Source: Candidatus Zambryskiibacteriota bacterium | GTDB lineage: Bacteria; Patescibacteriota; Minisyncoccia; Phycocordibacterales; DATDWN01 | DNA length: 38,153 bases | Assembly (NCBI GenBank): GCA_026394815.1 | Contig: JAPLZX010000012.1 | Span: forward strand, 4,196-42,348 | Direction: 5' to 3' | In this document: positions 7,242 through 26,107 of the stretch, one piece after another | Layout of the letters: each line of letters begins with the position of its first letter | How positions within the stretch are numbered: the first letter of the stretch is position 1 | Notes under the pieces: generated by a model | The model's input: the letters and a program-made list of their open reading frames with translations, nothing else | Told to the model about the DNA's origin: nothing | Database searches by the model: none | Position numbers and translations under genes: made by a program

Positions 7242-8462
7242 TTATTTTGTCAGATCTAAACTCCACAAAGAATTGTCAATTTTGTTTATAAAAACAAGAT
7301 ACTGTTCATTTTCAGACAACATAGGTTTTATAACATCAATTTGTTCATTGCTTTCATTAACCAAACTTTCCACAACACTGGAAGTGTTATTTTTTATATT
7401 GTATTTCCAAATATCGTCAGTGAAAGAAACAAACCCTCTATACCACAAAGTTAAACTATCTCTATCAATAAATTCTTGCGGAACAGCACAATAAATAATG
7501 TTTCTATCTTTTTTACTCCACACACATTTTTCTGGAAAAGTAGTTGGTGTAGTGCTTATGGATGATTTATTTTTTATATCAAACACAAACATTTGGGGAG
7601 CACCTCCCTGGTCTAAGAAAAGTATTTGTGTGGCTAAATCATTTACCAAGACGGAAAGTCCAAAAACATTACCAAGTATTCTTCTAATCTGCCCATTTCC
7701 TGTGTCTACAAAAAACAAAAACCCTTCGGTGTTTTGATCTGGTTTAGTTGTTAAAGCAACAGTTTTTGCATTGACGTATTGGGACAGGAGTTCTCTGATA
7801 GGATAATTCCATATCTGGGTTCTTCTACTACCATCAAAATTAGAAATATATCCAACCGAAGAATCTATTTTTTGTTCCAAAGAAAAAACACTACTTCCAA
7901 AAACAGACATTTCATTCAGGTTTTCAGGGAATTTTACCGCAGACACAAGATTTTCGGTGGTTGTAGAAATCCCTTTGATTAAAAGTCCATAGGTATCTAT
8001 TGTTTGATTGTCATCCTTCAAATACCTGGCAATAAGAGAATTATTTTTATTACCCCAGATAGCATCATAAACCATTGGTATGGTGGTGTTTGAGATACGA
8101 TTTTGGTTTGGTGAAAATAGCTCTGTTTCATAAATATGTCCTGTGGCTTTTTCTATATAACGAACAACCGTTCCCGCTTTAAAATCTAAAACTCCAGCTC
8201 CAGCCACTGGTTCGGCAGATATTTTACGCAGTTTCAATGCGTAGTTTGATATTTCTGGCGGTGTTGGTTCTATAATAGGCTCTCCTGTTACAGGTATTTC
8301 TGCGACAGTATTTCCTCCAAAAGGAAAAAAGTTTTTAAATATACTATTTCCTCCACCAGACGTATCTGCACTGTTTTGGATAATAAAATAATAACCAATC
8401 AAACTGACCAAAAAAAAGCCAAGGACCACAGATATTATGATAATTAAAAGTTTTTTTGACAT
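7242..8462 (-). CDS. Membrane-anchored protein with a probable beta-propeller/TolB-like extracytoplasmic region; last gene of the T4SS-like locus
   Basis: Start at 8462 (MSKKLLIIIISVVLGFFLVSLIGYYF N-terminal TM); repeated blade-like segments such as MLSENEQYLVFINKIDNSLWSLDL. Start is 1 nt from the upstream stop. Confidence 0.55.
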   Translation of the reverse strand: MSKKLLIIIISVVLGFFLVSLIGYYFIIQNSADTSGGGNSIFKNFFPFGGNTVAEIPVTGEPIIEPTPPEISNYALKLRKISAEPVAGAGVLDFKAGTVVRYIEKATGHIYETELFSPNQNRISNTTIPMVYDAIWGNKNNSLIARYLKDDNQTIDTYGLLIKGISTTTENLVSAVKFPENLNEMSVFGSSVFSLEQKIDSSVGYISNFDGSRRTQIWNYPIRELLSQYVNAKTVALTTKPDQNTEGFLFFVDTGNGQIRRILGNVFGLSVLVNDLATQILFLDQGGAPQMFVFDIKNKSSISTTPTTFPEKCVWSKKDRNIIYCAVPQEFIDRDSLTLWYRGFVSFTDDIWKYNIKNNTSSVVESLVNESNEQIDVIKPMLSENEQYLVFINKIDNSLWSLDLTK

Positions 8463-8463
8463 A

Positions 8464-9303
8464 TTATTGAATATGAAAATGAGATCCAGTTGCATAAGGT
8501 ATAACCCTTACAATTAACGGACGTACCCCAGATTTTATGAGAGCATCCATTTCTACTTGAGTTTGTACTTCCCAAAAAGCAGATAAACCAACGCTTGCTG
8601 CTGATTGAGCGACTGAGTTTATATTACTAGCACTTTTGTTTGTTATGGTTGCATCGACACATGTTCCATTTGCATGACATGTATCTTGGTGTGTTGTTGT
8701 TGGTGGATATCCTTCAGTAACTGCCCATGTAATACCACTTCCTCTGAGACGCTCGTTTAATAAAACAAATTTAGCTAAGGAGGATTGTGATAGAGATTTA
8801 CCTACAGCACTTCCTTGTGTTGGAATACCCAAAGAACTTAATGTTTTACAATCTGGACATCCACCAACTACTACTGTTGGTATTGTCGGTATATTTGGTC
8901 TTGGTAGGCTTAAATTAAAATCAAGAATTTGTGGGTTTATTGTGTAAAGAATTACCCAGGCACCTATAACCAAAAGCAGTCCGTATATAGCATTTTCAAT
9001 ATATTCCCTACCCTGTGCTTTTCCAGATAAAGCGTCTGACGTTGCATAAAGAACACCACCATAGGTAATCACGAGAAAAGCCAAAACAGCAGCCACCGCT
9101 ATAGCTATGTTAAATGCAGCAGGAAGATATGTCCCCAGGTTAGTTGTAGCTCCATTTTCCCCAATTCCTGGTAAAGGAGCAAGAACCGTATAATCGTTAT
9201 TTGGTTGAGTGGGTGTTCCTTGTGCATAGGTTGTGGAAAAAACAGAAAACATTATTCCCATCATTACAGCCATTATGCTTATTTTAATATTTACATTTCT
9301 CAT
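8464..9303 (-). CDS. VirB2/TrbC-like pilin with C-terminal M15-type (LAS) metallopeptidase-like domain
   Basis: Signal peptide, then two TM segments with a Gly-rich loop (AFNIAIAVAAVLAFLVITYGGVLYATSDALSGKAQGREYIENAIYGLLLVIGAWVILYTINPQILDF). C-terminus: GITWAVTEGYPPTTTHQDTCHANGTCVDATI...GSHFHIQ. Confidence 0.7.
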   Translation of the reverse strand: MRNVNIKISIMAVMMGIMFSVFSTTYAQGTPTQPNNDYTVLAPLPGIGENGATTNLGTYLPAAFNIAIAVAAVLAFLVITYGGVLYATSDALSGKAQGREYIENAIYGLLLVIGAWVILYTINPQILDFNLSLPRPNIPTIPTVVVGGCPDCKTLSSLGIPTQGSAVGKSLSQSSLAKFVLLNERLRGSGITWAVTEGYPPTTTHQDTCHANGTCVDATITNKSASNINSVAQSAASVGLSAFWEVQTQVEMDALIKSGVRPLIVRVIPYATGSHFHIQ

Positions 9304-9308
9304 TTGTT

Positions 9309-10304
9309 TTATTCCCCAAACATTAAATTAAAATTACTTGATGCATATTGTAATATTTTCTTTGTGTTTTCAATTGAAAGTGAAATGTTTGATGTGCCAG
9401 AGGTTCCTTCGTTTTGTCTGAAGACCTGGGTTGATTGTTCCGGACTATTATTTACTGGAGAACCATTGATAGACCATTTATAAACCAATTCTCCTGCATT
9501 AGAATTTGTTATTCCAAAAAATAAAGGAATACCAACCACCACTATTTCTTTTGAATTTTTAAGCCCTATGGTGTTATAGAGAGATTTTTGAAATTCTATC
9601 CCATATATAGGATCTTTTCTATAAAAAAGAACAGAAGGCTCTGCTGGAGTTAGGGCTAAAGTAGCGTAACCAGACCCAGAACCATCAGGTGTTGCAACTT
9701 CTACTTCTATATTAATTGGTCTTGAAATTAAAGAGGAAATAAAAGAATAAGTATTTTTACCAAATCCTGAAACACCATCAACTACACTTCCATTCTTTTT
9801 CCAAGTGTAGATTAAATTTTTTGCTCCAATTTCCGTCCCGCTCGCAGATATAATATGAGGCAAAGCGATTATGGTTAATTGGTTTTGATGACTGAAAAGT
9901 GATTTGCCCTTATAAAATGGGGGGACGAAACCAACACTTTCCCAAACCAAATCAATACTAGCTGGTCTTATACTAAAGGTTTTTTCTATCACTTCTCCTT
10001 CTTGAGTTTCTACCACAATATCCAGCGTTGTGACTGTGTTCATTGCTCCAGTGGTGAAACTAAAAGATTTTTCTCCAACACCGGATTTTAAGGTTTTATC
10101 ATTTATTTTCCATGTAATATTTGCTGCATTTATATTTGTTGCATAACTGACAACAGAGACATACACAACCTCATTTGGTCCAGGGGCTTCAGGAATCATC
10201 TCGACATTTATTTCAGTCTGGGGCAAGGAACCAAGTTGTGCGTTTGCAATACCAAAAAATCCTAAAATGCACATAAAAAACAAGATAAAAACAAGTTGTT
10301 TCAT
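9309..10304 (-). CDS. Secreted protein with Ig/PKD-like repeats in the T4SS-like locus
   Basis: Start at 10304 gives signal peptide MKQLVFILFFMCILGFFGIANAQ; beta-rich repeats with ITWKINDK, IYTWKKNGS and VYKWSINGS motifs. Confidence 0.6.
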   Translation of the reverse strand: MKQLVFILFFMCILGFFGIANAQLGSLPQTEINVEMIPEAPGPNEVVYVSVVSYATNINAANITWKINDKTLKSGVGEKSFSFTTGAMNTVTTLDIVVETQEGEVIEKTFSIRPASIDLVWESVGFVPPFYKGKSLFSHQNQLTIIALPHIISASGTEIGAKNLIYTWKKNGSVVDGVSGFGKNTYSFISSLISRPINIEVEVATPDGSGSGYATLALTPAEPSVLFYRKDPIYGIEFQKSLYNTIGLKNSKEIVVVGIPLFFGITNSNAGELVYKWSINGSPVNNSPEQSTQVFRQNEGTSGTSNISLSIENTKKILQYASSNFNLMFGE

Positions 10305-10353
10305 TGGTGTAATTATATCATAATAAATAACCCAAATAGCGTATTTATACACA

Positions 10354-10788
10354 TTATTTCTCTTCTTCATCCACAAAAGGAACATTAGGAATTTGTCCAG
10401 TTTTATTCATGCTTTTTATTTTTCCTCCCACACTCGCTACTCCCTTTGTTAAGGTTGCATGTTTGGATACCAACCCTTTTATTTTTGTGGTACCTATAAG
10501 ATAAACCACAACACCAGTCCATATTGGCAATATATTTATAAAAGGAATCATTTCAACAGCAAAACCTCCAATCATTGAACCGAATCTTTTTGGGGTCATC
10601 ATGTTTATTCCATACATCTTAAACCATAAAAAGAAAGTTAAAAAAATAAAAATACTAATAAAATCGGCCAAAACATTACCAAATATCGGTATCCAACCAA
10701 TAATAGCTTGTGTCCCATCAAGACAAAGTGCAACAAAAATCATTAAAATTGCAACCGTATCTGAAATAGGACTTTTTTCATTTTCCAT
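10354..10788 (-). CDS. Small multi-TM membrane protein in the T4SS-like locus
   Basis: 144 aa, about 3 hydrophobic segments and a charged C-terminus; same strand, tightly spaced next to virB4. Confidence 0.5.
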   Translation of the reverse strand: MENEKSPISDTVAILMIFVALCLDGTQAIIGWIPIFGNVLADFISIFIFLTFFLWFKMYGINMMTPKRFGSMIGGFAVEMIPFINILPIWTGVVVYLIGTTKIKGLVSKHATLTKGVASVGGKIKSMNKTGQIPNVPFVDEEEK

Positions 10789-10800
10789 AACCCTAGTATA

Positions 10801-12612
10801 CTATGAACTTTGTTCCAAATCTTTTTTTGCTGCTTTTATTGCCAAAATCTGAGATGGGTCAGATGTAATTATTTGCTCTTCTGTATAAGAAGCAATAATT
10901 TTTATAGCTACATGTTTTAATCCTGCAAAGAAAATTCCTTCTCCTACATCCGATTCAAGCAATAAATATTTTTCTTCATCTGTTAAATTGAATGTTTGTT
11001 GAAGCTTGTCAACGGATGTTGTGGATTGTTTCAAAAGTATTTGTATTGATGAGTTTGTAATAATAGGTACGCCGTAGGGAGATCTCATAAAATCATCAAC
11101 ATCCTGTGTTATGGTAGCAAGCCCTAAATAATATTTTCGTCCTCTTTTTGCTAAAGATAGTAGAAATGATGCCGTGTCTTCCGATTTCATCATCCACCAA
11201 GCTTCATCTATAATTAAAAGTCGCTTTTTCAATTTCTTTCTAATCATGTTCCAAATATAGTGCATGATTATATACATTGCGATAGGTTTAAGTTCATCTT
11301 CCATATCTCGCAAAGAAAAAACGATAAATCTTTGGTTTATATCCACATTACTAGGTCTATTTATAAATCCAGCCCAAGTACCACGAGTGTATTTTGTAAG
11401 ACGTTGGGCCAGTGAATCTCCCCCTTCCATACCAGAGAGAACTAATTCAAAGTCGGACATAAGAGGGGGTTCAACATTTTCAAAATTTGAATCTGCGGTG
11501 ATATCTTTCAATGCATAGGTTTCTGTAATAGCACGGTCAATAACAGCATCTTCTTCTGGAGTTAGCCCTCCCATCATAATACGAAATAAACCAACAAGAT
11601 TAATAATGTTTGAACGAAGAACAGAGGCAAAAGACTCTCCCTCACCTGGAGTTGGTAGTTCAAATGGGTTTATATGATGTTCAGAGTTAAGTGAAATATT
11701 AAAATATCTTCCTCCTGTTGCTTCAGCCAAATACTCATACTCTTTTTCGGGGTCAATAACAATAACATCCGCATCAAACATTAAAGTACGCAGGATTTCC
11801 AATTTTGTCATAAATGATTTTCCAGAACCAGACTTTGCAAAAACTATTGAGTTGTAGTTTTCCAAAGAAAATCTATCAAATAAAACAAGAGACGAATTAT
11901 GTCTATTAATTCCATAAAGAATTCCTTTGTCTGAAGTTAGGTCAAATGAAACAAAAGGAAAAAGAGAAGATAGTGGTGATGAATTTAGTTTGCTATAAAC
12001 CTGAAGGCCATCTACCCCTAAAGGAATGGTTGTTTTGAAAGCCTGTTCTTGTTGAAATAAGGCGGGTTTTATGTAAACCATTTTTGATTCAAGAATTGAT
12101 TTAATTTCAGACTCTATTTTGTCCAACTCATTACTTGTTTCGGCATATATGGTGACATACAAACCAACATCAAAAAGTTTTTCTTGTGCCTGCTGTAGCT
12201 GATCTCGCAGGTTTTCCAAATCCTGATAGGCGGTATCTAGCATAGGATTTCTAACCAAACCTTTTGCTTCACGAGTATTAATTTGACTTTGAACTTCAGC
12301 CACTTTTTTCTGAAATGTTCTAAGAACTTGAGAGGTTTCTATGGGTAAAACAAAAATAGCTACATCGAAAACTTTATCCAAATTAATAATTGGAGCAAAC
12401 CAATTTTCTCCCAAATATCTAGGATAAGAAATAACAAAGAAGCTACGCAAAACTTTTTCGCCCAAATTAATTTCTTTTGGAGTTATTTTAAGAGCACTTG
12501 GGGCTATGATGTCTTTTAATTCCAACGAATTGGAATCATATATCTCCTGGGGAAGAATAGTAGATATGTTTTGCTCCGGTTTTTTAGGTTTTAGGAAATC
12601 TAATATACTCAT
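10801..12612 (-). CDS. virB4: VirB4/TraC-family T4SS ATPase (ATPase domain)
   Basis: Walker A FAKSGSGKSFMTKLE, DVIVIDPEKEYEYLAEATGGRYFNIS, Walker B KRLLIIDEAWWMM, FLLSLAKRGRKYYLGLATITQDVDDF. Confidence 0.92.
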   Translation of the reverse strand: MSILDFLKPKKPEQNISTILPQEIYDSNSLELKDIIAPSALKITPKEINLGEKVLRSFFVISYPRYLGENWFAPIINLDKVFDVAIFVLPIETSQVLRTFQKKVAEVQSQINTREAKGLVRNPMLDTAYQDLENLRDQLQQAQEKLFDVGLYVTIYAETSNELDKIESEIKSILESKMVYIKPALFQQEQAFKTTIPLGVDGLQVYSKLNSSPLSSLFPFVSFDLTSDKGILYGINRHNSSLVLFDRFSLENYNSIVFAKSGSGKSFMTKLEILRTLMFDADVIVIDPEKEYEYLAEATGGRYFNISLNSEHHINPFELPTPGEGESFASVLRSNIINLVGLFRIMMGGLTPEEDAVIDRAITETYALKDITADSNFENVEPPLMSDFELVLSGMEGGDSLAQRLTKYTRGTWAGFINRPSNVDINQRFIVFSLRDMEDELKPIAMYIIMHYIWNMIRKKLKKRLLIIDEAWWMMKSEDTASFLLSLAKRGRKYYLGLATITQDVDDFMRSPYGVPIITNSSIQILLKQSTTSVDKLQQTFNLTDEEKYLLLESDVGEGIFFAGLKHVAIKIIASYTEEQIITSDPSQILAIKAAKKDLEQSS

Positions 12613-12617
12613 AAAAA

Positions 12618-13256
12618 TTAATTTGGTTTAATTGGTTTTTCTGTGTCTCCAGGATTAAATATTTTATAAAACAATTCTATCACTTCTTCTGTTCCCAACC
12701 TTATAACTCGTATTCCACATCGTGATAAACCTTGTTCAACGACTGAAACCCTTTGTTCCAATTGTGTTCGGTTTTCCTCAAAACTCACTCGTTTATTTTC
12801 TAATTCTTCTGTTGCTGTTTTTTTCTTAAATAATCCTCCCACAACCCCTCCTTTAACATTAATCATTGCTGGGTCATAGGAAACGATAACAAAAAAACTT
12901 TTCGTCATGATATTAGTGGATTCAGTGAATTTTTTAATGAACTCAATGTATTCTCTAGTTTGAATTTTCATCAAATCATTTATTTGTTCTTTATATCTTT
13001 CTTCCAAAAGAGCAATATATGGTCTTATATCAAGTCTTCTTGACTGTATACAAATTTGCACAGTAAAATCTAAAGAATTTAAAAAGTCTTGAAACTGCAT
13101 TATTATAGCGCTACGTTCATCTTCTGATTTAAGAGAAAAGTTCAAAGAAGAAGCCAAAACAACCCCGCGCATTGAGTCATCTTTCAGAATAACGATGCCA
13201 TCACGCACTTCTTTTATTGGGACAAATTCTTGGGTTGCTTTTGAAGATACAGCCAT
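12618..13256 (-). CDS. TraC/VirB4 N-terminal-domain-like protein, separately encoded
   Basis: EFVPIKEVRDGIVILKDDSMRGVVLASSLNFSLKSEDERSAIIMQFQDFLNSLDFTVQICIQSRRLD is typical of the TraC N-terminal region; 5 nt before virB4. Confidence 0.7.
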   Translation of the reverse strand: MAVSSKATQEFVPIKEVRDGIVILKDDSMRGVVLASSLNFSLKSEDERSAIIMQFQDFLNSLDFTVQICIQSRRLDIRPYIALLEERYKEQINDLMKIQTREYIEFIKKFTESTNIMTKSFFVIVSYDPAMINVKGGVVGGLFKKKTATEELENKRVSFEENRTQLEQRVSVVEQGLSRCGIRVIRLGTEEVIELFYKIFNPGDTEKPIKPN

Positions 13257-13326: not shown

Positions 13327-13764
13327 CTATTTTGTATTCTTTCCCCCCTCCCCTGTAAGCGGATTCAAATTCTCATTTATATCAAGTGACCATGAAAGTT
13401 CCTTGAGTTTACTATCAGATAAACGGGGTACGTAAATTTGGTTTACTGTCGTATCTGGGGCTGTCGTAGCTATCGCCTTATTCCTTGTTTCCTTCTTCCA
13501 GATATAAAGATTTTGTTTTGTATAATAAACGAAAGCCGATTCCAAAAAATCAATAAATGGCTTGTTGTTTATTTTGTAAAATGCCAATGCTAGAGAAAGA
13601 GGAATAATACCAGCTATTAAAAATATCGATATATATATGGGTAAAAATGTATAAAAAATAAAAGCCATTCCCCCGCCACCAACCAGATAGACAAATTGCT
13701 TTATGGTCAAAGGACCTATAATTTTATCTTCTATTTCTATAAATTGTGGTACTTGATATCTCAT
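13327..13764 (-). CDS. PrgI family protein
   Basis: MRYQVPQFIEIEDKIIGPLTIKQFVYLVGGGGMAFIFYTFLPIYISIFLIAGIIPLSLALAFYKINNKPFIDFL; PrgI-like N-terminus with two TMs, upstream of VirB4. Confidence 0.85.
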   Translation of the reverse strand: MRYQVPQFIEIEDKIIGPLTIKQFVYLVGGGGMAFIFYTFLPIYISIFLIAGIIPLSLALAFYKINNKPFIDFLESAFVYYTKQNLYIWKKETRNKAIATTAPDTTVNQIYVPRLSDSKLKELSWSLDINENLNPLTGEGGKNTK

Positions 13765-14483: not shown

Positions 14484-16802
14484 TTATGTTATAGGAGGTG
14501 TTGATGGGAGTGTAGGGGGTGGGGCTGGTGGAGTTTCCTCTTTCTTTTCTTCAGTTAGTTTTTCTTTATCTTCATCTTCTTCCCACTCTTCCCCTTTTTC
14601 CTCAGCTTCCTTTTTCTTCTTTTTATATAATTCTTTAAGCTCTTGATCTGCTGATTTTCCTTTCAAAACCCCCCTGATTTTTCTAGCAATTTCCTGGTTA
14701 TCAGCTTTTGTTGTAATGTATGTTGAACCTCCCGCTCCCCCGATTGTTCCACCAACAATACCCGTTAGTGCTCCTAGCCCCATCCCAGTTCCTACCTTCG
14801 CGATATTTTTAAACCAACGCATTCCTTTCTCGTTTTCAAATGTTTCAGCATACGCACCAACTCGATCTTCGAATATTTTATTTATATCTTCCTCACCGGC
14901 TTTTGAGGCTTTCGATGCTTTCTCGCTAGCTTTCTTAAGGGAGTCGATATTATCTGTCTCAATTTTGGCGAGATTTTGGATATTTGTCATTTCTTCACGG
15001 ATTTTCATTTCTTCTGCTGTCGTTACCGCTACATCTATATTTTTTCTTAATCTCTCTTCCTCATCCCGTAATCTTTTTAATTCATGTTCTGATTTACTAA
15101 GACTGACCTTTGTTTTATTTTCTTCTTCTTCCAATTTATCTTGTCCACGCTCCTTTCTTATTTTTTCAGTAGCAGCATCACTAGGTTTCAATGATTTTGC
15201 AAATTCTGCTTCTTTTTTAGCTTTTGCTTCAAGGTCTTTCTGGAAATTTACGTTCTTTGATTTAGCTCCTTCACCAAATTTAACACCAGTCGCGCTTGAT
15301 ATTGCTCCAAAAGTATCTGTTGATCTGGCATCAAAACTACTGGTTGCGGTTTTTGTCCCAGCCCTTAGAGCTGTTTTAGCAAAAAATCCACCAACTCCAC
15401 CTTTTGAGGCTGCTTCTTTAAGCCCTTCTCTATTTGCTATTATATTTCCAGCTCTGCCAGCAGTATTTCTTCCAAATCTAGCTGCTCCACCCATTACAGC
15501 TCCACCAGCAAAGGTTGTTAATTTACCTGTGGCGGCACTAATATGTTCAGAGCCTTTTTTAGAGGTACTTTTTGCGATTACAAGAGAAGCAATAATAAGA
15601 CCTATTATCACAGTAAAATTAAAAAGAATACTAATACTACCAGTAGCTGCGACAGAAGTGGAAGTGGCTGTTGCCACTCCAGTCGGCGATATAAGATTTC
15701 CCCAATTACCACTACTCGATATAAAACCAGGGCTCGACATGAGAATCAAGATAATGGATGTCATAATCATATAGATAGGGGCAAAAAGTAATTGACTGTT
15801 TAACGAATCCCACCAATCATCGGCATATTTTTTTACGAAAGGTAAAGCCATTCCCATATAAGCAACGGGCGAAAGCATAAGAAGAATAATCAGGGTTATA
15901 TATCTAATAATAAACATACAAGCCACAGCGAAAAATACAAAAGCAACAACAAGAAAAACTACTGACCCAAGAAGTGCTATAACCAATAGATTATTGCCAT
16001 TACCGGAATTTTTTAACATATCATCAAACGATGTGGATGAAAAAAAACTAGACACACCCAACGCTTTCATAAAGGGCATGGATAATCCACTTACCTTGGT
16101 AGTACTAGGTGTTTGGTTAGGGTCACTAATGATAGAATTATAAACACCCAAAGTAACCACATTAGAAGCATCTATAAGCACTTTTGTAAAAAACAAACTA
16201 AAGTTTACAAGCAGAGAAGCTAAAACAATCATACTAACAAATTTTTTGATTTTAGTTAGGTCACTTAATCCTATAATCATTTTTATACCTTCATATACAA
16301 GTAGAAATATAAAAGCGATATTCATTATGTCGCGAATAACTTTCCAGGCAGTATTTATACCAGTCAATTTATCCAGATTTGCCTGCATATTTATAATTGT
16401 GAAACTAAGAACAGAATCTAAAAGAGTTCCAGCGAGCCATAGAATAAGTGCCATAACCCCCATAATTATGAAAGCTATTCTCGTCAAACCATTCATGATA
16501 CATGTATCCCAATTACTAAATAATCCGCAATCATTTTTATCTACAACATCCTGAACTTTTGAAGTATCTGTTGGTGTTGTTGTTTCTCCTACAACAACCC
16601 AATGCACTTGAGACCCCATTGCTATACATTGGTTATAATCAAGTGGAGGATTACCTTGAATTACGTTTTGTGCATTATAACAACCGGTCACGGTCTGTGC
16701 ATTTATTTGACTTACAGGACTAAAAAGTCCAACCAGTACAACTAGTATTAATCCCAACACTAAAATTTTAGTTTTTGATTTATTTATATTTTCTCTAATC
16801 AT
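14484..16802 (-). CDS. VirB6/TrbL-like polytopic membrane protein with long charged coiled-coil tail
   Basis: 772 aa; N-terminal signal, multiple TMs (FIIRYITLIILLMLSPVAYMGMALPFVKKYADDWWDSLNSQLLFAPIYMIMTSIILIL), then a Lys/Glu-rich cytoplasmic region. Confidence 0.75.
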   Translation of the reverse strand: MIRENINKSKTKILVLGLILVVLVGLFSPVSQINAQTVTGCYNAQNVIQGNPPLDYNQCIAMGSQVHWVVVGETTTPTDTSKVQDVVDKNDCGLFSNWDTCIMNGLTRIAFIIMGVMALILWLAGTLLDSVLSFTIINMQANLDKLTGINTAWKVIRDIMNIAFIFLLVYEGIKMIIGLSDLTKIKKFVSMIVLASLLVNFSLFFTKVLIDASNVVTLGVYNSIISDPNQTPSTTKVSGLSMPFMKALGVSSFFSSTSFDDMLKNSGNGNNLLVIALLGSVVFLVVAFVFFAVACMFIIRYITLIILLMLSPVAYMGMALPFVKKYADDWWDSLNSQLLFAPIYMIMTSIILILMSSPGFISSSGNWGNLISPTGVATATSTSVAATGSISILFNFTVIIGLIIASLVIAKSTSKKGSEHISAATGKLTTFAGGAVMGGAARFGRNTAGRAGNIIANREGLKEAASKGGVGGFFAKTALRAGTKTATSSFDARSTDTFGAISSATGVKFGEGAKSKNVNFQKDLEAKAKKEAEFAKSLKPSDAATEKIRKERGQDKLEEEENKTKVSLSKSEHELKRLRDEEERLRKNIDVAVTTAEEMKIREEMTNIQNLAKIETDNIDSLKKASEKASKASKAGEEDINKIFEDRVGAYAETFENEKGMRWFKNIAKVGTGMGLGALTGIVGGTIGGAGGSTYITTKADNQEIARKIRGVLKGKSADQELKELYKKKKKEAEEKGEEWEEDEDKEKLTEEKKEETPPAPPPTLPSTPPIT

Positions 16803-16872: not shown

Positions 16873-18872
16873 TTATATCGCAGGTCTGTATTTACTAGGC
16901 GTTAGAGGTAAACACGCAGCTGATCCCCATGTTGGACAGGCTCCATCTTTATCTCCGTCTCTCTCGCACCCACGTAGCACGTCATAAAGATATCCATCAG
17001 GGAAAGCAACGATGTCAGTAGAATAGCCCTGACAATTGGTACCCGTTGTTTTACTCCATATACCAGCATCCACTCATATTTTTGTATAGCTGCTGTGTCA
17101 CCAGGAGCAGGGAGATTATTCTCGGTCCATGTCCAAAGCCCTAGAGAAACAAGTTCAGCTTTGGCTGCAATTACTTCAGCCGTATGATTACCATGTTTAT
17201 AATCACCATCTGGTGGAGGTGTTAAACACTGGCCTCCAGTATCACATGTTACGCGCCATGCATTAGTCCATACAGTAACCATAGGGACTTGGTTAGATAC
17301 CACATGATCTGCAGGACCCACTATATAATTAAGCACCATAGCAATCACATTGTCGTTTGCATACGAAGTATAAGCAGCTTTAACATTTGGAAATCGCGCA
17401 TTTGTTTTACTAACTACATCTTCAACCGCAGCTTGATAATCTACAGGCGGAGGACTTACAACAGGATTCATTTTAGGTATTGCTTCCAACAAAGGAATCA
17501 TAAAATCTATTGCATCCTCTGCTTCTTTTTTTTCAGCAGCAGTAGGTGGTGGTATACATTCATCTCTGGTTGTATCATCCGGATTCAACAAATCATTAAC
17601 CACTTTTACAATTAGAATTACGGGGTCTGCCGAAACACCCAGAGAATTTTTTAAATTATATGTAATTCTATATATGCCAGTGATAGTGGTGTTAACCGTC
17701 CCAGTAGAAGTCACTCTGTTTGAAATATCTCCCTCTCTATAGTCATACCCAAAAGCACCTGGTTTTATAAAAGTTGATTGGGCGCTTTGTGATGCTCCAT
17801 CTTGGCCTTCACCAGGTCTGGTTCTCAAAATTACCAAAGGATTTTTTGATTCCAAAGTTATAAAAGGTTTATTATTACTTGGCACTGTTACTTCTGGAAT
17901 AGGATTATCCTCACCTCTTAGATCACCCTTCAGCCCTATATTACTCATAACCTTACTGAATAATTGTGTTATCAGGGCGGAAGCTATTTCATCAACAGAT
18001 CTAGCTACTTCAAGTTGCCTAAGATCTGTTCCTAAAGCACTATTAAGTTGGGATTCTATAACACTTCCTGGGGTGACGGTTTGTTTGTCTACTTGATCAC
18101 AGTCTGTCGCAGAGCTTCCTGGTGGATAAGACACCAAAATTCCCGCTGCTGCAGCTTTTTCGGCATATGTAGTTCCTTTTTTACATTTTTCATAAGACAA
18201 AAATCCACCACCTTGATTAAGTTCTGTTTTTTGTTGGTTTGTTTTAGAGGCAATTCCTTTTAAAAGCTGACTTTCTGCTGCAAAATATGCGTTATAAGGA
18301 TTGCCGCCATTAGTTTGGGTCATTTCAAACCAGCCATTCCAACCCCCTTGAGTAAAGTCCTGTGTAAAAGCCTCATAATTATCTTTTAAAGTATTCAAAG
18401 TACACACATAGCTGTCTTCCTGAAGATAATTTTTCACCAAAGCAAGTCGTACCTGAACCCTAAATGGACTACACAGTTTGTTTAATTGTGTTTCGGAAAG
18501 AAATTGTGATGCTGTATTATCTGCTACATCAAGAAAAAATTGACTAGGATCTGTAACATATCCCGGATTTCCTTTAAATCCAGAGTTTATCCAATTAACC
18601 GTTTGAGCTGTTAATTTCTTTATTATGGTTTTTAATATAATTCTAGCTGCAGGGTCAATAACGAAGTCCTTTATCTTTTCCGCAGTTGTCATTCCGGCGG
18701 TTATTGCACTCGAGATTCCGCCTGAAGAAGTTGTCACAAGAATAAATGGATCTGTACCTACATCCATAATTCCCATATAAGCATATCCTTTTTCAACTAA
18801 ACCAAAAAACAAAAAAGATACAATAAAAAAAACAATCAGCACTTGTTTTGATATGTTTCTAATTTTATTCAT
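16873..18872 (-). pseudogene. Large secreted T4SS-locus protein with Ig/DUF5011-like domain, interrupted by a frameshift near 17070
   Basis: ORF 16902..18872 has a signal peptide and Ig-like segment (YDYREGDISNRVTSTGTVNTTITGIYRITYNLKNSLGVSADPVILIVKVV). The C-terminus continues better in another frame (DAGIWSKTTGTNCQGYSTDIVAFPDGYLYDVLRGCERDG...SKYRPAI*, ORF 16873..17073); one extra G at 17070-17071 restores the frame. Confidence 0.65.
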
Positions 18873-25036: not shown

Positions 25037-26107
25037 TTGGAGTCAGGTCTTAAAAGCACGGACCAGACATTTATTTCAAAATGTCGTCGCGTGGGATCGG
25101 GCAAATCTGCGGTGAACATAGGTACGTCTTTGATATTAAATATCATTCTCCTGACGTCGCTTTCAACACCACTTCCTGTGCAGGCGGGGGTTATTTCTTT
25201 CTTCTCAAACCTTTTTTCTTCAGTTGAAGCGGAAACGGAAGAAATACAACCAAATTTACAAAATATGGCTTTACTTCAAGCTGCTATATCTCCAAACCAG
25301 AACTCTTTGGGGACAAAAGAAGAAATTACTATTGTTGATGGGACCTCTCTTTTACCAGATACACAAAAACTTGCTGATACAAAAACAATAAACGAGGAAC
25401 AAATTAGTATTTATGTAGTACGTAAAGGAGATACTCTACCAGCCATTGCAAAAATGTTTGGTGTATCGGATAACACCATTAGATGGGGTAACAATATAAG
25501 TGGAAGCACTATTACAGTTGGTCAAACCTTGGTTATCTTGCCTATTTCTGGGGTACAACACGTCGTGAAGTCTGGAGACACACTTCAAAGTATAGCCAAA
25601 CTCCACAAGGGTGACCTTGATGAAATTTTACAGTATAACAATCTAAGTAAGAATTCTAAGTTAGCCATTGGAGATATTATTGTTGTACCAGATGGTGAGG
25701 TTGTTCCTACTTCATCAGGAAGTAGTGGTAATGTCAGAACAAGCCCAGCTTATCCCGTATATGAAGGTTATTATATGAGACCAATTATTGGTGGTATAAA
25801 AACACAAGGCATTCACGGGTATAATGGTGTTGATTTAGCATCATCCTATGGAACAAATATTTTAGCTTCGGCCGAAGGAGACGTGCTTATTTCTAGAAAT
25901 TCTGGTTGGAATGGTGGGTATGGTTCTTATATTGTTATCAAACATCCAAATGGGACACAAACATTATATGCACATATGAGTGCAACTTTAGTTGGGGCAG
26001 GAACTCATGTGGAACAAGGGCAAGTTATCGGGAAAATGGGTTCCACAGGTAAGTCTACTGGGAGTCATGTGCATTTTGAGATTAGAGGCGCTAAAAATCC
26101 CTTCTAA
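25037..26107 (+). CDS. LysM-containing M23 (LytM-type) murein endopeptidase
   Basis: Two LysM motifs (YVVRKGDTLPAIAKMFGVSDNTIRWGNN, HVVKSGDTLQSIAKLHKGDLDEILQYNN) and M23 motifs (HGYNGVDLASSYGTNILASAEGDV, YAHMS, GSHVHFEIR). TTG start at 25037. Confidence 0.93.
   Translation: MESGLKSTDQTFISKCRRVGSGKSAVNIGTSLILNIILLTSLSTPLPVQAGVISFFSNLFSSVEAETEEIQPNLQNMALLQAAISPNQNSLGTKEEITIVDGTSLLPDTQKLADTKTINEEQISIYVVRKGDTLPAIAKMFGVSDNTIRWGNNISGSTITVGQTLVILPISGVQHVVKSGDTLQSIAKLHKGDLDEILQYNNLSKNSKLAIGDIIVVPDGEVVPTSSGSSGNVRTSPAYPVYEGYYMRPIIGGIKTQGIHGYNGVDLASSYGTNILASAEGDVLISRNSGWNGGYGSYIVIKHPNGTQTLYAHMSATLVGAGTHVEQGQVIGKMGSTGKSTGSHVHFEIRGAKNPF

Follow-up and report, generated by a model that had tools for sequence, protein, structure and literature searches.

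The T4SS operon and its fused pilin gene

The window, that is the whole stretch of 38,153 nucleotides analysed here, carries a type IV secretion system (T4SS) operon on its minus strand. The operon adjoins dnaA and dnaN, a neighbourhood in line with earlier reports of dnaA-proximal T4SS clusters from the phylum (PMC12102498). The 5'-most T4SS gene (16902–18872) encodes an Ig-bearing protein with a conserved core (residues ~60–315) and a variable C-terminal tail, which differs greatly in length within the order, from 0 aa up to 669 aa. Further genes encode a polytopic membrane protein in the VirB6 position (14484–16802), which has no Pfam match and was assigned from its position and transmembrane (TM) content, and a PrgI/VirB3-like protein (13327–13764; PF12666, 42.1 bits versus a cut-off of 27). 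The VirB4 sequence is divided between two neighbouring genes (10801–13256), namely a TrsD-like N-terminal part (12618–13256), for which the matches to NF045975, NF045971 and NF041427 were all below cut-off, and the ATPase part (10801–12612), which matched the NCBIfam model NF045971 (CD1110 family) over cut-off (1.6e-111). The ATPase gene has the same start place in most relatives. VirB4 frames of 989 to 1281 aa with large insertions were observed at L274 and L276 (G016, G439) and on contig C3 of G077; the insertions interrupt the match near query residue 265 and look like inteins of the VirB4 ATPase gene. Downstream of virB4, a small multi-TM protein (10354–10788; no Pfam family matched) and a secreted protein with Ig/PKD-like repeats (9309–10385; weak Ig/PKD matches below cut-off) are encoded, the latter upstream of the fused gene. 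The last gene of the operon (7242–8462), with a likely ATG at 8462 directly past the pilin stop, encodes a protein with one N-terminal TM helix and a propeller-like C-terminal part. Other classes have look-alikes of this gene close to virB4 (L278, L282, L293), as noticed by eye. The genome to which the window belongs is 0.65 Mb in size, 96% complete and of Parcubacteria type, with MAGs of Parcubacteria and Zambryskibacteria as nearest named relatives; the bacterium is tiny and probably host-dependent.

The second-to-last gene of the operon, and its virB4-adjacent pilin gene, is an open reading frame (ORF) with an ATG start (8464–9303), the 279 aa product of which is a fusion of a pilin and a LAS-fold domain, as judged from the ORF, the PF18895 match, the predicted fold and the orthologues. 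A signal peptide is predicted for residues ~1–27 (9223–9303) on the basis of a hydropathy peak at residues 4–26, a helix at residues 2–26 in the AlphaFold model and a ...TTYA/Q site, after the TTYA of which cleavage would occur. The VirB2-like pilin domain (residues 53–121; 8941–9147) was recognised by the Pfam model T4SS_pilin (PF18895) over cut-off (27.5 bits versus 26.6). Its two TM helices were placed at residues 56–88 and 92–122 by hydropathy and AlphaFold; a linker then leads to a compact domain at the C-terminus. The VirB2-type pilin half with a signal peptide and two TM helices, as described in the first-pass annotation, is thus borne out, whereas the glycine-rich loop mentioned there is in fact the short TM1–TM2 loop usual for PF18895 pilins, and no long glycine-rich loop is present. 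The protein is predicted to be exported by Sec, with both the N- and the C-terminus outside; we infer this orientation from basic residues in the loop and from the paired cysteines of the tail.

The same arrangement recurs in relatives. Within the family a pilin match was found in 16 of 17 genomes; by reading of the ORFs, LAS-type tails (A or B, see below) are present in 14 and a glucosaminidase-like tail in one, and one family genome harbors a further pilin, fused to NlpC/P60. Outside the order, pilins with LAS-B tails are encoded at L325, L327 and L335. A frameshift or misassembly combined with a chance motif is an extremely improbable origin of the fusion, given the LAS-tailed ORFs in 14 of the 17 family genomes and in other orders and classes, and no support for an artefact or chance origin was found.

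Fold and predicted metal site of the C-terminal domain

The C-terminal domain (residues ~146–279; 8467–8868), predicted to be extracytoplasmic, was assigned to the LAS fold by AlphaFold, by Foldseek and by comparison within a 15-member family, here termed subfamily LAS-A. Modelled alone with 16 homologues in AlphaFold2, it reached a pLDDT of 91.5 and a pTM of 0.85, and the best 49 matches in a Foldseek search of the PDB were all LAS-fold proteins. E-values of the LAS matches ranged from about 2e-3 to 0.1, with TMq mostly between 0.45 and 0.6 overall. Hedgehog N-domains mostly reached 0.5–0.6, MepA 0.53–0.56, LdcB/VanY 0.47–0.51 and Ply500 0.40. No Pfam model recognises the tail of the window protein, and the M15 profiles PF13539 and PF02557 gave no match over cut-off for this protein or the 15 closest tails. 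Of the M15/LAS-type domain proposed in the first-pass annotation, the LAS fold is therefore retained by model and Foldseek, whereas an M15 assignment finds no counterpart in Pfam. No match to the LAS-A tail was obtained among 50,697 phage records.

In the window protein the C-terminal motif reads H210-x2-G213-x3-D217 and is completed by a terminal H275-F276-H277. Conservation was assessed in an alignment of fifteen LAS-A tails with roughly 22–42% identity, in which a TE and a PP motif, H205, G213, D217 (8653–8655) and E245 (8569–8571) are present in all 15 members. H210 (8674–8676), the first residue of the H(x)6D pair, is kept in 13 and replaced by Gln in two, and H275 (8479–8481), the first His of the HF[HS] motif, is kept in 14. 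The second His of the terminal motif, H277, is kept in only six tails, while nine read HFS. The residue conservation across fifteen homologous tails, together with the LAS fold, argues against a chance motif. The H-x2-G-x3-D motif pointed out in the first-pass annotation is accordingly retained, while the terminal HxH proposed as a zinc signature is reduced to its first His. Neither of the two outcomes named in the first-pass annotation as refuting, a structure prediction lacking the LAS fold or motif residues that vary among orthologues, was observed. Since the second His is poorly kept, the ligand of the terminal motif is more likely H275 than H277, and the likely zinc ligands, predicted from sequence conservation, are H210, D217 and H275.

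Classic M15 enzymes have an Asp or Glu at position -3 of the last ligand His. In the window protein this position is taken by Thr272, so that no acidic residue is found there, which counts against a reading of the domain as an enzyme. A candidate for the catalytic base is E245 in the YEV/WEV motif, which is separated from H275 by an insertion of ~30 aa. In LAS-B, a sister set of 29 tails in which H, D and H are nearly invariant, short-loop members read E-x-x-H with Glu at position -3, and in long-loop members the Glu remains ahead of the insertion; E245 may therefore be the displaced catalytic base of LAS-A. The cysteine pairs of LAS-A tails are kept or lost together (the CxxC is gone in L080, the CxxxxxC in L016); this pattern is suggestive of disulfides and of an extracytoplasmic tail.

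The M15 profile matched LAS-B weakly (6.6e-4) and exceeded its cut-off solely in the tails L098 and L135; a weak sequence match (HH_signal) was likewise present in LAS-B relatives. In a profile-profile comparison of LAS-A with LAS-B the H..G..D motif was aligned, with a non-significant E-value of 0.36, and a common origin of both tail types is suggested by structure alone. A sequence search of the PDB with the LAS-B profile gave FliE as sole match, which was rejected as chance. Two LAS-B-like tails (L090:4327–5145 and L255:11887–12837) seem to be without the His/Asp site and are possible pseudo-enzymes. In a secreted protein (L328:955–2598), a LAS-B domain precedes a segment resembling a phage-type lysozyme, for which Pfam gave no confirmation.

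The LAS domain could also be a non-catalytic, Hedgehog-like binding module by which the pilin adheres to the wall or to another ligand. Such a pseudo-enzyme would agree with the Hedgehog N-domains, rather than known wall enzymes, being the nearest folds, with the missing acidic residue at -3, with the Gln replacing a ligand His in two homologues and with HFS in place of HFH in nine of 15. We consider it unlikely, since almost every member retains H, D, E and H at an identity of only ~30% and since classical hydrolases otherwise occupy the same gene position.

Tails of virB4-linked pilins in related genomes

A search for related loci with the single fusion protein gave no match; with alignment A1, 79 named Parcubacterial loci were obtained. 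Within the order, the fusion profile matched 177 of 197 genomes, in many of them across the pilin half only. For a census of tails, virB4 loci were drawn evenly from the order's genomes to avoid bias (53 loci). A same-strand pilin gene is located near virB4 in 49 of them, 48 times downstream and within ~4 kb. Tails of at least 100 aa were found at 28 of these 49 loci and no long tail at 21, so that the predicted activity is not universal. A recognisable wall-hydrolase tail is present in 17 of the 28 long-tailed pilins: LAS-B (eight), LAS-A (two), SLT-like (two), M15/VanY (two), NlpC/P60 (one), glucosaminidase-like (one, under cut-off) and M23 (one, just under cut-off). The remaining long tails are coiled coils, Cys-rich or without an assigned type. 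By eye, some tails look like a beta-helix (L133, L225) or like GH75 (L090, L093, L112, L234), without confirmation by Pfam where enzyme-like tails were scanned one by one, two have the look of calcium repeats (dockerin-like; L134 and L268, 15766–17337), and many long coiled coils are present among the tails.

Enzyme-type Pfam domains in pilin tails are nearly all wall-active. Among the homologous tails, E-values of 4.4e-15 (SLT), 7.7e-13 (M15_4), 1.1e-9 (SLT_3), 9e-8 (NlpC/P60), 1.1e-6 (3D), 1.2e-6 (VanY) and 3.6e-6 (M23, just under cut-off) were obtained, and a pilin-Amidase_2 fusion was found in another class (L282; 2.1e-15). Fusion to this one pilin domain has thus occurred repeatedly for unrelated enzyme folds, the sole common substrate of which is peptidoglycan. 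We regard this repeated joining of wall hydrolases, as read from the gene sequences, as the strongest evidence for the putative function.

The tail classes are exchanged rapidly. In a tree built from 50 VirB4 rows, at least 26 changes of tail class are required, compared to 27.6 with shuffled labels, and the classes are no more clustered than shuffled ones; with one genome sampled per family, fast turnover is expected to appear random. The nearest VirB4 relative of the window (L274, 85% identical) carries a glucosaminidase-type tail in place of LAS. This turnover favours, without proving it, an outward action, in which a wall-cutting enzyme on the T4SS pilin would face the wall of the host cell that the epibiont grows on, and the tails would be swapped with changes of the host; the bacterium's own wall chemistry is unlikely to have changed so often. 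Against such an action it has to be considered that some relatives are reported as parasites of methanogens, which are without murein (PMC10936435), and that rapid turnover could equally be neutral shuffling among functionally equivalent enzymes. We regard outward action as possible, with the balance somewhat against it.

Not only the tail but also its carrier varies. In other lineages a separate enzyme with a single-TM anchor is encoded directly after virB4, namely in L278 (LAS-B) and in L293 (NlpC/P60-like), and in L235 the pilin is without a tail while an SLT domain is found on the homologue of the Ig-bearing protein (16902–18872), which suggests that the latter protein is a second carrier of swappable domains. 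In these arrangements the wall-cutting module thus keeps to the T4SS while its carrier changes, and the putatively catalytic tail is, as far as the gene comparison goes, a swappable module across the order.

These carriers bear on the role of the pilin half. Five plain T4SS pilins are encoded in a separate array of the same genome, away from virB4 (G000 contig C12, 43253–45123; L317–L321). The fused pilin is therefore one of several, and a specialised or anchoring role is more probable for it than that of main pilus subunit. The pilin-like half might even serve as a membrane anchor alone and never be assembled into a pilus, as the separate array and the single-TM-anchored enzymes of L278 and L293 would allow; on the other hand, the pilin domain is conserved including its G...TINP end, and it is kept without a long tail at 21 of 49 loci, which points to a role of its own. 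We rate a pure anchor at only slightly below an even chance.

Proposed function and relation to known systems

The fusion is probably the VirB1-equivalent, wall-cutting component of a Patescibacterial T4SS, to which a VirB2-like pilin domain is joined in a single chain. According to this proposal, the two TM helices would, after export by Sec, hold the protein next to the VirB4/VirB6/PrgI complex in the membrane and leave its C-terminus on the outer side. Docking to the T4SS would fall to the pilin-type domain, and the LAS-fold peptidase-like domain, predicted to bind zinc, would cut or trim peptidoglycan so that the channel or pilus could cross the wall. The action would be like that of TraG, PrgK or VirB1, but with attachment through the pilin half, which would have a specialised or anchoring role. 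The locus and the predicted topology fit the VirB1 type, with a gene in the T4SS locus and a predicted extracytoplasmic domain of putative wall-cutting activity. Across the whole of the 96%-complete genome, families SLT, NlpC/P60 and CHAP gave no match, in searches that controls showed to work, and Pfam detected no SLT or CHAP domain in the fusion protein. Contrary to a T4SS role of the fusion, a LysM-M23 protein encoded outside the operon (25037–26107) could serve the T4SS instead. The idea of merged VirB1-like and VirB2-like roles, put forward in the first-pass annotation for a predicted activity, has become stronger, because homologues carry SLT, NlpC/P60, M23, VanY, amidase and glucosaminidase tails and because the genome of the window is without VirB1-type enzymes. 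More tentatively, and with less confidence than for outward action as such, the virB4-linked pilin may, throughout the order and in some genomes beyond it, carry interchangeable enzymes which would open the host wall and be exchanged with the host, in which case tail type might indicate the type of host wall.

The role of the T4SS in Patescibacteria has been called completely unknown (PMC11665869). In a 2025 survey, VirB2-like pilins were found in 1,948 assemblies, and since most VirB2 genomes were without VirB1, pilus biogenesis was inferred to be VirB1-independent (PMC12102498). Pilin-hydrolase fusions are not mentioned in the text of this survey (PMC12102498) or in the passages found of a T4SS review of December 2025 (PMC12857230), and in the survey and those passages plain pilins and pilin arrays alone are described. 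No description of the fusion was found in the other searchable literature, namely main texts of papers outside subscription journals. The consecutive Pfam numbers of T4SS_pilin (PF18895) and SLT_3 (PF18896) indicate that the Pfam curators may have met a pilin-SLT_3 combination; no paper stating so was found. The component types of this T4SS are known; their combination, a pilin linked to virB4 whose wall-hydrolase tails are exchanged, is apparently new. A VirB1-like activity appears to be hidden within the pilin gene itself, across many enzyme classes. The set of components inferred for the T4SS is altered by this, in that a wall-cutting part thought absent is now pointed to, and it provides a concrete enzyme to assay as well as a testable tie of tail type to host wall.

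VirB2/TrbC-like pilins (PF18895; NCBIfam NF045849, Mbov_0395 family) likewise have a signal peptide and two TM helices and are likewise encoded in a cluster with VirB4, PrgI and a protein in the VirB6 position. Normally they stop after TM2 (100–150 aa), whereas the window protein adds an enzyme-type domain of 130 aa. The VirB1-type hydrolases TraG of pIP501, PrgK of pCF10 and VirB1 of A. tumefaciens are also encoded in T4SS loci and have an enzyme-type domain outside the membrane; those of Gram-positives are membrane-anchored like the fusion (PMC12857230). The fusion differs from them in being LAS peptidase-like instead of SLT, CHAP or LytM and in its pilin-domain anchor, and it has no homology to VirB1. 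With the LAS/M15/M74 metallopeptidases (LdcB/VanY, 4jid; MepA, 1u10; Ply500, 2vo9) it shares the fold, the H(x)6D motif and the terminal ligand His, but not a Pfam M15 match or the acidic residue at -3, and the insertion between E245 and H275 sets it apart. The N-terminal domain of Hedgehog, the best structural match, acts in animal signalling, and the kinship is structural only. The T4SS of Southlakia epibionticum is of the same kind and follows the same neighbourhood logic (PMC10633639, PMC12102498). Among Patescibacteria, Tn-seq has been applied to this organism alone, and it showed both the T4SS and the pilin array to be essential (PMC10633639). Its peptidase and lysozyme genes after virB4 are separate from the pilin, whereas in the window enzyme-type domain and pilin are fused.
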